A DNA stretch of 64,000 bases, taken from positions 676,501 to 740,500 of the forward strand of contig NZ_CP025611.1 of assembly GCF_002868735.1 (NCBI RefSeq). Reading direction: 5' to 3'. This document shows positions 13,689-63,761 of the stretch, in pieces. Positions within the stretch are counted from its first letter, which is position 1; each line of letters opens with the position of its first letter. The DNA is from Niveispirillum cyanobacteriorum. Its GTDB lineage: Bacteria; Pseudomonadota; Alphaproteobacteria; Azospirillales; Azospirillaceae. The notes under the pieces were generated by a model, which ran no database searches, was not told the origin of the DNA, and was given only the letters and a program-made list of their open reading frames with translations. The position numbers were made by a program, and so were the translations under genes.

Positions 13689-14366
13689 ATGCCCGAGACG
13701 CACACATCCGGCAGCACCGATCCTGATATGGCGGTTCCCCTGCGGTTCGGCGCGTCCGGTGACCGTGGCGAGGGCGGGGAAGGGGCGACGCTTCTTTATC
13801 TCGGCGTCTTCATCCTGCTGCTGGCTTTTTTCATCCTGTTAAACAGCATCTCGCATTTCCATGACGAGAAGGTGGGTGCCGTCATCCGCAGTGTGGATGA
13901 TGCCTTTTCCACCCAGGCGCTGCTGACAGGCTCCCCCGGCGACCGGCAGCAGGCCCGGCGCGAGGCGGCGCGTGCCATTCAGGATCTGGGCGATCTGATC
14001 CGCGCCGAACTGCCGCTGGCCAAGGTGGAGGCGGGAACCGAGACGGGTACCCTGCATGTCACCATGCCGGCCTCCAATCTGTTTGCGGGCGACGGTCTGG
14101 CGATCCGGCCCAGCCAGCAGGCATTGATGGACCGCATCTCACGCGCTTTGGAGAACAGGCCCCGCGGCGTCTCGGTACGGGCGGAGTTCCTGTTCGCCAC
14201 GAAGGGTGTGGAGGATACGGCCCCGTTGGTGGCGCGCGCCGGTGCCCTGGCCCGTGCCGTATCGGCACTGGGTGCCAATCCTGCCTGGCTGTCGGTCGGG
14301 TTGGAGAAGGGGGCGGAGGCGGGGCAACTGCGCCTGCTGTTCCGCGTGCATGAGGAGGGTGCCTAA
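13689..14366 (+). CDS. MotB-related flagellar protein lacking the proton-channel aspartate
   Basis: The 225-residue product has one membrane helix (LYLGVFILLLAFFILLNSI, residues ~36-54) placed as in MotB/PomB, a linker, and a C-terminal region with weak OmpA-like features. The helix lacks the aspartate that carries protons in stator B subunits, and the peptidoglycan-binding signature is poorly conserved. It overlaps the next gene by a single base (TAATG), which encodes a second MotB-like protein that keeps the aspartate. I infer a paired membrane complex. Assignment below MotB-like level is uncertain. Confidence 0.65.
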   Translation: MPETHTSGSTDPDMAVPLRFGASGDRGEGGEGATLLYLGVFILLLAFFILLNSISHFHDEKVGAVIRSVDDAFSTQALLTGSPGDRQQARREAARAIQDLGDLIRAELPLAKVEAGTETGTLHVTMPASNLFAGDGLAIRPSQQALMDRISRALENRPRGVSVRAEFLFATKGVEDTAPLVARAGALARAVSALGANPAWLSVGLEKGAEAGQLRLLFRVHEEGA

Positions 14367-61423: not shown

Positions 61424-62239
61424 ATGCTGACGGGGAAAAAGGGGCGGTTGGCTCTCGGGCTTTCCGTGCTGACATGCCTGATGTCTGCTGTTGCCGTGCC
61501 TGCCCAGCAGGCCCGTAAACCCGAACCGCCGCTGCTGCTTCTGACAGAGCCCAATCCGCCGGTCAATTTCACTGACCCCTTGACCGGGCAGATCATTGGC
61601 CTTGCCGCTGATAAGGTCCGCCTGATCATGCAGGAAACGGGATTGGCGCATGAGATACGGATCATGCCCTGGCCAGAGGCGCAGGCCATGGTCGATAATA
61701 CCCCCAATGCCTGCATCTTTCTGATGAACCTCACTGATGAACGTCGGCCCAACTATCAATGGGTGGTGCCATTGATGGAGGGGGGCTGGGCTCTCTTTGC
61801 GCCGCTGGGCTTTCAACGGCGGATCAATGGTCCAGCAGACTTGTCAGGTCTGCGCATCGCAGTGCAGGGGGGCGCGGCGGTGGAGAAGCATCTGATCGAG
61901 CTGACCCGCGACGTGCCCAACGTTACCCTGGTGGCGCAGGAGGGGGCTGCTGAAATCGGCAGCATTTTCAACGGCAAGGCCGACTTGTACGCGGGTGGCG
62001 CCTGGGCCGCGCCTTATCAGGCACGCCAAGTGGATATGCCGGTCCGGATGGTCATGCGGCTTACCCGGTCAATCGGCGCCATGGCTTGTAACAAGAAGGT
62101 GCCAGCCCCTACGATCGCGCGCATGCAGAAAGCGCTGGATGCGATCATCGCCGATGGCAGGGCGGGCGCCGTGGAGCGGCGGTACAGTACGCCCGGTTCA
62201 TGGGGCGGATGGGGGCAGGACCGTCGCCCGCCCTCCTGA
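61424..62239 (+). CDS. Periplasmic solute-binding-type protein (family 3)
   Basis: The 271-residue product has a signal peptide (MLTGKKGRLALGLSVL start, cleavage near AVPAQQ), then features of family 3 solute-binding proteins: TGQIIGLAADKVRLIM, DLSGLRIAVQGGAAVEKHL and a C-terminal helix (IARMQKALDAIIADG). No ABC permease or ATPase genes are near, so it may act as an orphan binding or sensor protein. ATG 61424 is preferred over GTG 61403, although both are possible. Confidence 0.8.
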   Translation: MLTGKKGRLALGLSVLTCLMSAVAVPAQQARKPEPPLLLLTEPNPPVNFTDPLTGQIIGLAADKVRLIMQETGLAHEIRIMPWPEAQAMVDNTPNACIFLMNLTDERRPNYQWVVPLMEGGWALFAPLGFQRRINGPADLSGLRIAVQGGAAVEKHLIELTRDVPNVTLVAQEGAAEIGSIFNGKADLYAGGAWAAPYQARQVDMPVRMVMRLTRSIGAMACNKKVPAPTIARMQKALDAIIADGRAGAVERRYSTPGSWGGWGQDRRPPS

Positions 62240-62251
62240 CAACTCTACTGG

Positions 62252-62713
62252 TCAGGTCCAGTCGATACACATCAGAAGCTTGTCCACGCGCCGCCCGTCA
62301 CTGGCGAGCGGCAGGCACAGCCAGTGGAAATTGCGGTAGCTGCGGCTCAGCCACCACAGGTTTTCTTCCCCGCTCAAGGGGCGGGCCTGCCGCCGCACCG
62401 TCTCCAGCCGGCGGAACCAGCCGGCGAATGCGGAACCCAGCAATTCATCATCTAGAACGCGGCCTGTCAGTTCCTGACCAAGCCCTTCCACGATTGCCGT
62501 ACCTGCGAGGCGGCAGCGATACTGACCATTTGTATAGTCAAGGATCAGGATGTAGGGGAGAAGGCCTGGTATATCGCCTGGCTGGATATGTTGACGTCCG
62601 GGTATTACTCCCTCTGCGCCAATCCCAGACCAGTAGTCCTGAAATTCACGGAGCCGGCTTGTTGCCGGTATTGGCGGCGGCATGGGGGGTGATCGCTGCA
62701 ACAATTTGAACAT
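62252..62713 (-). CDS. PAS-domain protein (PAS_5 type)
   Basis: The 153-residue protein has the compact pattern seen in alphaproteobacterial PAS_5 proteins: LREFQDYWSGI, PYILILDYTNGQYRCRLAGT, ELTGRVLDDELLGS and a C-terminal NFHWLCLPLASDGRRVDKLL. No output domain is attached. ATG 62713 with GGAAACAG upstream is preferred to a TTG four codons earlier. It is divergent from the SOS-like region. Confidence 0.82.
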   Translation of the reverse strand: MFKLLQRSPPMPPPIPATSRLREFQDYWSGIGAEGVIPGRQHIQPGDIPGLLPYILILDYTNGQYRCRLAGTAIVEGLGQELTGRVLDDELLGSAFAGWFRRLETVRRQARPLSGEENLWWLSRSYRNFHWLCLPLASDGRRVDKLLMCIDWT

Positions 62714-62742
62714 GGCTGTTTCCAATCCCGTTTGGAGGAACC

Positions 62743-62772
62743 ATGACCCTGTTCCACCCCCTGGGCAACTAA
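62743..62772 (+). CDS. Possible 9-codon leader peptide
   Basis: GGAGGAACC precedes ATG 62743, which opens a frame reading MTLFHPLGN and then TAA. Such a strong site with an immediate stop could be a leader peptide or chance in GC-rich sequence. It lies upstream of the LexA-box region. Confidence 0.25.
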   Translation: MTLFHPLGN

Positions 62773-62824
62773 CCGTAGGGTCAGGAATGGCCCTTTGCCC
62801 GGCAAACTATGCGGGAGGATAGGC

Positions 62825-62905
62825 ATGCGTTCCGGGCATGAGATGGGGGGTCAGGAATGCGAACGAAGTGAGAACAAACCCCTTGATGTTCACATTTTGT
62901 TCTGA
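62825..62905 (+). CDS. Possible 26-residue micro-ORF overlapping the LexA boxes
   Basis: GGGAGGA precedes ATG 62825 by about 6 bases; the frame starts MRSGHEMGG and ends LDVHILF at 62905. It runs through both LexA boxes, so it can only be expressed from a promoter further upstream. Low support. Confidence 0.22.
   Translation: MRSGHEMGGQECERSENKPLDVHILF
62861..62875. promoter_or_regulatory. LexA box 1 (GAAC-N7-GAAC)
   Basis: GAACGAAGTGAGAAC matches the alphaproteobacterial LexA direct repeat, read on the minus strand as GTTC-N7-GTTC. It lies 63 bases before the micro-protein start and 12 bases from box 2 in inverted orientation. Confidence 0.65.
62888..62902. promoter_or_regulatory. LexA box 2 (GTTC-N7-GTTC)
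   Basis: GTTCACATTTTGTTC is an exact match to the alphaproteobacterial LexA consensus. It sits between a TTGATG (62883-62888) and a CATTGT (62906-62911) spaced by 17 bases, a plausible -35/-10 pair, so LexA would block the promoter of the micro-protein at 62939. Confidence 0.72.
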
Positions 62906-62938
62906 CATTGTGGCCTCACGAAAACGAAGGAGGCTCAC

Positions 62939-63037
62939 ATGAACCGCGTTGCTTACGTTCGTGATTTCCTGGCCATCACCGGCTTCTTCGGCACCATGTA
63001 TGCGTGGTTTGTGGTCGGCGCCGCCCTGGGGGCGTGA
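62939..63037 (+). CDS. 32-residue single-helix membrane micro-protein, probably SOS-controlled
   Basis: ATG 62939 follows a near-perfect GAAGGAGG by five bases; the frame reads MNRVAYVRDFLAITG, continues as one hydrophobic helix (residues ~10-32, including FGTMYAWFVV) and ends at TGA 63035. Two LexA boxes lie just upstream. By analogy with the small LexA-controlled division inhibitor SidA of Caulobacter or damage-induced toxins such as TisB, it may act on the membrane after DNA damage. No sequence identity to either is claimed. Confidence 0.7.
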   Translation: MNRVAYVRDFLAITGFFGTMYAWFVVGAALGA

Positions 63038-63046
63038 CGATCCCAT

Positions 63047-63077
63047 CCGGCCCATCACTCATCAATGACGGGGCCGG
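63047..63077. terminator. Inverted repeat between convergent micro-protein and glycosylase genes
   Basis: CCGGCCC (63047-63053) and GGGCCGG (63071-63077) form a 7-bp stem with a long loop, followed by TGTTTCCC. It lies between convergent stops and may terminate both units weakly. Confidence 0.4.
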
Positions 63078-63107
63078 TGTTTCCCAATTAGTTTCCTGGA
63101 TGGCGCC

Positions 63108-63761
63108 TTAGCCGTTCTGATCTATATGCTCCCGCACGGCGGAAAACACCGCCTGGAACATCTCCGTCGTCAGACGCCCGGTGTTCGTGTTGTAGCGGGA
63201 GCAGTGATAGCTGTCGAAAAGTACAACCCTGTCCCGCACGTCATGGCGCGCGCCATGGCCGAAGGCGAAGTGTGCCGGTCGGCGTCCTAATGCGGTCAGC
63301 GTGCTGGCGTGAGAGACGGTGCCCAGCGCCACAATGGCGCGCAGGTTCCCCATGGTGGCGATTTCCTCGGACAGGAAGTTCCGGCAGGTGGCAATCTCCG
63401 CCGGTGTCGGCTTGTTCTCTGGCGGGACGCAGCGGGCGGCATTGGTCAGGCGGGTGTCGATCAGTTGCACACCGTCATCGGGCCGCTTGCCATAGGCACC
63501 GGTGGCAAAGCCGAAACGGATCAGCGTGTCGTACAAAAGATCGCCGGCATAATCGCCCGTGAAGGGACGGCCCGTCTGGTTGGCCCCGTGCAGGCCAGGT
63601 GCCAGACCCACGATCAGCAGCCGCCCATCCAGCGTGCCGAAGGCTGGGACTGGCGCATTGTGGTAGGTGGGGAAGGCGGCGCGGTTACGGGCGCGGAATT
63701 CCGCCAGACGCGGGCACAGGCCGCAATCGCGCCCTGGCACCGACGGCTGTCCACCCGTCAT
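63108..63761 (-). CDS. Uracil-DNA glycosylase family protein (family 4/5-like)
   Basis: The protein has N-terminal cysteines DCGLCPRL, the glycosylase motif LLIVGLAPGLHGANQTGRPFTGD, a region with NAARCVPPENKPTPAE, and the C-terminal active-site SYHCSRYNTNTGR. Cysteines fit the 4Fe-4S uracil glycosylases that excise deaminated bases. The start is ambiguous; MTGGQPS at 63761 is preferred (AAGG upstream), with in-frame ATGs up to 63806. It converges with the SOS-type micro-gene. Confidence 0.87.
   Translation of the reverse strand: MTGGQPSVPGRDCGLCPRLAEFRARNRAAFPTYHNAPVPAFGTLDGRLLIVGLAPGLHGANQTGRPFTGDYAGDLLYDTLIRFGFATGAYGKRPDDGVQLIDTRLTNAARCVPPENKPTPAEIATCRNFLSEEIATMGNLRAIVALGTVSHASTLTALGRRPAHFAFGHGARHDVRDRVVLFDSYHCSRYNTNTGRLTTEMFQAVFSAVREHIDQNG

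Follow-up and report, generated by a model that had tools for sequence, protein, structure and literature searches.

A conserved 32-residue membrane micro-protein gene of the Azospirillaceae with predicted SOS control

Introduction

TisB of Escherichia coli is a small, LexA-controlled protein with one transmembrane helix. DinQ, from the same species, is described as a toxic single-transmembrane SOS peptide accompanied by the antisense small RNAs agrA and agrB (PMC3567139). In the alphaproteobacterium Caulobacter crescentus, SidA is described as an SOS division inhibitor of 29 residues that lies in the inner membrane and acts on FtsW (PMC4211646), and the GTTC-N7-GTTC box is also described in Caulobacter (PMC12700426). 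YneA, SosA and ChiZ of Gram-positive bacteria are presented as small membrane proteins, induced by the SOS response or by damage, that act on late division; in the same account YneA is shown to bind FtsW, and models that are not of high confidence place SidA, ChiZ and SosA on this protein as well (PMC13396833).

Here, we describe a locus of Niveispirillum cyanobacteriorum in which two inverted GTTC-N7-GTTC boxes precede a gene for a putative membrane micro-protein of 32 residues. The resemblance to SidA is one of description: both are alphaproteobacterial and about 30 residues long, with LexA control and inner-membrane location predicted for the micro-protein, and the box is the one described in Caulobacter. 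Among 385 genomes of the class, clear profile members of the micro-protein family were limited to the Azospirillaceae, a second family (f16) and a single genome of a third (f64). YneA, SosA and ChiZ are likewise comparable by description, and YneA and ChiZ differ in carrying a LysM domain according to the source cited above (PMC13396833). TisB and DinQ share with the micro-protein, again by description, small size and the single transmembrane helix and LexA control predicted for it; in contrast to the agrA and agrB RNAs described for DinQ (PMC3567139), an Rfam search of window positions 62200-63700 revealed no RNA family near its cut-off. A likeness within the organism is the promoter of its own lexA gene, which has the same inverted pair with 25 instead of 27 bp from start to start, but which drives the repressor itself; among 43 listed sites, no gene other than these two has the pair. 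Among plant-associated bacteria, Azospirillum and its relatives serve as models. A search of the open-access literature, with subscription papers mostly outside its scope, returned, among the matches listed, neither a publication describing a gene of this kind in Azospirillaceae nor a report on how Azospirillum and relatives stop dividing after DNA damage.

Results

The window, which is the whole stretch of 64,000 nucleotides that was analysed, contains two exact boxes, inverted to each other and separated by 12 bases, followed by a ribosome binding site and a 32-codon frame (Table 1), as the original prediction had described. The same prediction had set box 2 between -35 and -10 elements without placing either; conservation across 73 distinct promoters now fixes both hexamers, the -35 TTGATG having one base in common with box 2. 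A generic sigma-70 consensus scan of the locus returned no promoter site. The ribosome binding site reads GAAGGAGG, and the same or a similar sequence was seen by eye in close relatives. A leader hairpin can be drawn in window 62913-62934, with GCCTC at 62913-62917 paired to the GAGGC contained in the ribosome binding site; since this 5' arm precedes the expected transcript start near 62918, the hairpin probably does not form. The weak hairpin past the stop codon is absent from the terminator scan output. A search of the 6.05-Mb, five-contig genome gave one match for the micro-protein gene.

Table 1 Features of the micro-protein locus (positions in the window)
Feature	Position	Strand	Sequence	Remarks
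LexA box 1 (predicted)	62861..62875	minus	GTTCTCACTTCGTTC	exact GTTC-N7-GTTC; upstream half of inverted pair
-35 hexamer	62883..62888	plus	TTGATG	placed by promoter conservation
LexA box 2 (predicted)	62888..62902	plus	GTTCACATTTTGTTC	exact GTTC-N7-GTTC; fills the -35/-10 spacer
-10 hexamer	62906..62911	plus	CATTGT	17-bp spacer; placed by promoter conservation
Ribosome binding site	62926..62933	plus	GAAGGAGG	5 bases 5' of ATG
Micro-protein gene, 32 residues	62939..63037	plus	MNRVAYVRDFLAITGFFGTMYAWFVVGAALGA	translation, homologues, pN/pS and helix model
Weak hairpin past stop, possible terminator	63049..63075	plus		no long T run; fold of 63038-63110

With a single-sequence search, the frame was detected in all 11 genomes of the genus Niveispirillum, including that of the window, with weaker matches in most of 24 other sampled Azospirillaceae genomes. 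Profile searches extended it to 75 of 82 Azospirillaceae genomes (profile A1 at E 1.7e-4 or better, profile A3 at E 1.4e-8 or better), the order-level genome set numbering the same 82. The seven genomes lacking a match comprise four of the five in genus g6, the sole g11 genome, one of g2 and one of g12, the latter two being fragmented assemblies of 730 and 1,140 contigs, respectively; with four of the seven in one genus, the gene seems dispensable there. Among 11 named database loci, nine encode proteins 73-100% identical over the match and a tenth is 63% identical. Five of the nine belong to Niveispirillum records (N. lacus, N. irakense and others), and the rest to AAP38, Azospirillum (two) and Oleisolibacter albus. 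The eleventh was discarded as a chance match inside a long frame. In groups of 10, 21, 15 and 5 distinct coding sequences, pN/pS was 0.21, 0.25, 0.19 and 0.23, and substitutions concentrate at third codon positions in all four, implying that the frame is translated and under selection. Judged by this pattern of substitution, the 32-codon frame is a real gene under purifying selection. At six genus g2 loci (L017, L018, L020, L021, L128 and L130), an upstream start would add a long N-terminal extension, giving 64-residue frames.

To read the upstream regions, one locus per genome was taken from the Azospirillaceae (75 loci after two duplicates were dropped), with 320 bases 5' of the gene. At least one exact GTTC-N7-GTTC box is present in 74 of the 75, a plus-strand box in 73 and the inverted pair in 64; conservation of both frame and boxes in relatives, the check by which the original prediction was to be judged, thus came out in its favour. 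The sole locus without any box is L030, in genome G018. Within the 64 pairs, the start-to-start distance is 27 bp in 56 loci, 28 in seven and 26 in one, and a third box accompanies the pair in 24. When 73 distinct promoters were aligned on box 2, TTG was found 3-5 bases 5' of the box with 99-100% conservation per position, the second -10 position was A in 100%, and box 2 filled the 17-bp spacer throughout, a placement suited to blocking the promoter. By contrast, the minus-strand positions that would serve as -35 and -10 elements beside box 1 displayed no conservation.

We compared 11 neighbourhoods of the gene; as this comparison mixes true and shadow frames, it was used only to identify shared contexts. 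The upstream neighbour in the window is a minus-strand gene for a PAS_5 protein, and from downstream a uracil-DNA glycosylase gene converges on the micro-protein gene, neighbours that differ from those of most other genera compared. In 7 of the 11 neighbourhoods another convergent gene, with a helix-turn-helix match below the cut-off, lies 0.8-3.6 kb downstream. No division-linked neighbour was found among the 11. The micro-protein gene appears to stand alone as a one-gene unit.

A single exact box can readily arise by chance in a stretch of 64 kb: three were found in the window against 1.24 expected, and 16 of 100 shuffles reach three. The third of these GTTC-N7-GTTC matches lies at 13734-13748 and is GC-rich. 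The inverted pair behaves differently. It occurred in 27 of 59 genomes, all of them among the 35 Azospirillaceae in that set, and the reversed control pattern occurred in none; in the 385 genomes of the class, the pair was found in nine (five Azospirillaceae and four others) and the control in one. A chance origin of the pair is ruled out by this control. All 43 pair sites listed in the two scans were inspected: 26 precede the micro-protein gene and 17 precede lexA, with every site of the four genomes outside Azospirillaceae located at lexA. Among the sites listed, the exact inverted pair is thus nearly private to these two genes. In the N. cyanobacteriorum genome, the lexA pair lies at C1:446303-446342 (2304-2343 of locus L159). 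Two other families of the class, f43 and f63, likewise have the pair at the lexA promoter.

The genome encodes one LexA (a single PF01726 match). It contains 166 matches to the single-box pattern against 74 to the control, so that many single-box matches are due to chance. Eleven further single-box sites were picked by eye, and neighbouring genes at ten of them were compared with Pfam. Five of the sites lie 5' of genes whose products match the Pfam families SSB, RecA, Peptidase_S24 (umuD-like), AlkZ-like glycosylase and Oxygenase-NA, the last described as acting on damaged DNA. Two have neighbours that resemble imuA and rmuC by eye and have no Pfam match; of the remaining, two neighbours match Glyoxalase and GemA, and one site has no match. 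These indirect tests, with the same pair at lexA and single boxes at recA, ssb, the umuD-like gene and two DNA-damage genes, uphold the proposal that the boxes are LexA sites. The boxes at the AlkZ-like and Oxygenase-NA genes lie within about 130 bases of them (L266 and L268; C1 near 2,652,700 and 995,000), and both are likely to be further SOS genes, judging from these boxes. At another site (L267, C1 near 3,171,500), two same-strand LexA-type boxes 27 bases apart lie beside a frame of 123 residues and an opposite one of 294 residues, neither of which has a Pfam match (first 150 residues searched for the latter).

The predicted structure, modelled from seven sequences, is a single helix spanning residues 3-31 with a mean pLDDT of 94.1, and the best 19-residue hydropathy is 1.6, at residues 10-28. 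The frame had been proposed to be one hydrophobic helix, and the model agrees. Its 32 residues, hydropathy and single helix are those of a single-pass membrane protein of about 30 residues, some relatives being N-terminally extended; a membrane location is predicted, and the positive N-terminal residues suggest an N-in topology. Position 9 is acidic in all 36 rows of profile A3 and all 24 of A5. The A3 rows also hold R8 in 27, Y or F at position 21 in 34, W23 in 34 and G27 in 35. W23 is found in 10 of the 24 rows of A5, a profile weighted to f16; none of the 14 A5 rows that come from the second and third families has W23, which is also missing from the six genus g2 members with the possible extension. 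The invariant acidic residue 9, Y/F21 and W23 suggest a specific partner, as far as conservation can tell; no significant bias of conservation toward one helix face was found (p 0.08 and 0.51). NCBIfam and Pfam each gave no family for four members at E 10, a PDB search gave no relative (best E 1.9), and PHROGs gave no match for two members and one weak match (E 0.18) for a third.

Outside Azospirillaceae, the clear profile matches of f16 and f64 came with boxes. In f16, a candidate at E 0.1 or better was found in 15 of 17 genomes. One of these 15 loci is cut at a contig end. Each of the other 14 carries one exact box or more, and 12 combine a GTTC box within the promoter with a GAAC box that follows 29-30 bases later; compared with Azospirillaceae, the order of the pair is reversed and the -35 is further from the box, meaning that the pairing is kept and the layout is not. 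The f64 member has two tandem boxes. Since profiles A4 and A5 include the first f16 and f64 sequences, high scores at those loci are built into them; independent support for kinship comes from the A3 matches (E 1.4e-6, 6.1e-6 and 0.018) and from the boxes. At f16 loci such as L191, L230 and L231, the second LexA box is in the leader, where it overlaps or adjoins the ribosome binding site. Weak profile matches in other families of the class led no further: for the 18 inspected, which include the chance match noted above, the 400 bases upstream never contain an exact box, and the majority fall within longer frames. A small frame in genome G317 (L243) resembles the micro-protein family and has no exact box. 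The window protein gave no match among 50,697 phage records and one chance-level match (E 1) among 72,556 plasmid records; for this protein, phage or plasmid cargo is thereby ruled out.

Discussion

The frame and its boxes are conserved, the boxes keep a fixed place relative to the promoter, and the pair is shared only with lexA among the 43 listed sites; together these findings give good support for SOS control, and the micro-protein gene is almost certainly an SOS gene, to judge from its sequence context; LexA would bind the boxes and the gene would be induced on damage. The original prediction of a new SOS micro-protein therefore stands, by virtue of this conservation and of the LexA-type boxes, whereas its second part, an action on division or membrane potential, is argued by analogy only. 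As far as seen, this is a new family of a kind already known, that of SOS-controlled membrane micro-proteins.

We consider the chances about even that the gene is a one-gene SOS unit whose product acts as a SidA-like inhibitor of late division. In undamaged cells, LexA would occupy box 2, within the promoter, together with the adjacent upstream box 1 and impose tight repression. Once RecA triggers self-cleavage of LexA, the promoter would open, and a 32-residue inner-membrane protein would be made. It would have a short positive N-terminus, an R-[D/E] pair close to the edge of the membrane, and Y-x-W and G within a single transmembrane helix. On this reading, the product would bind a membrane protein of the late divisome, FtsW, FtsI or FtsN being our guess, and hold division until repair is complete, as SidA does in Caulobacter. 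Several observations speak against this reading: no division-linked neighbour was found, conservation has no significant bias to one helix face, W23 is missing in the second and third families, 7 of the 82 genomes lack a match, and one of the 75 loci is without a box. The transmembrane part of YneA, which is described as localising on its own without blocking division (PMC13396833), counts in the same direction. A broader version, which we regard as doubtful, would place the gene in an old family of alphaproteobacterial micro-proteins for SOS checkpoints, as its branch in the Azospirillaceae, with the invariant acidic residue as the FtsW contact and SidA as either a far member or an independent reinvention. 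Such a family would be marked by that invariant residue, where the single membrane helix begins, and by LexA boxes that have stayed paired while their layout was rebuilt.

Other readings of the locus differ in what the product would do. Bacteria have many known small single-pass proteins that modulate a larger partner in the membrane, and the micro-protein could be an SOS-induced modulator of a protease, a respiratory enzyme, a transporter or an envelope factor instead of stopping growth. The invariant acidic residue and the Y-x-W-x3-G motif, which suggest one partner, would suit this role; none of the 11 neighbourhoods offers a conserved neighbour as candidate partner. We see this role as a possibility on the unlikely side. 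A peptide like TisB or DinQ would instead insert into the inner membrane, lower the membrane potential and slow growth, giving tolerance with no division-specific stop. The size class and the predicted LexA control match, and two LexA boxes fit products that are kept very low, such as the harmful ones of colicin promoters. Against it, one acidic position is invariant, a leader hairpin covering the ribosome binding site probably does not form, the window protein has no phage match and a chance-level plasmid match, and toxins of this kind are less often inherited throughout a family. Moreover, the two Rfam matches in 62200-63700 scored 14 and 13.8 bits against cut-offs of 45 and 48; a known RNA antitoxin at the locus was rejected, no family being near its cut-off, while an undescribed RNA may be present. 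We regard a TisB- or DinQ-like function as rather improbable.

It is extremely improbable that the frame is accidental, with an LexA-controlled RNA as the product, or that the boxes serve the divergent upstream gene. The neighbours of the window genome, different from those of most other genera compared, could be taken to favour this reading, but pN/pS of 0.19-0.25 in four groups rules out an accidental frame. Service to a divergent gene is ruled out in turn by the linkage of boxes and frame, which persists while the neighbours change, and by the promoter alignment, in which the minus-strand -35 and -10 positions by box 1 are unconserved.

Returning to the SidA-like reading, a 32-residue gene without a family model, present in 75 of 82 genomes and preceded in 64 of 75 loci by a double LexA switch, is a direct candidate for the division stop that follows DNA damage. 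If true, it would be an independent case for the idea that SOS checkpoints converge on tiny membrane proteins with a hold on proteins of late division. The gene may be a brake that pauses cell division during DNA repair in a family of soil and plant bacteria.
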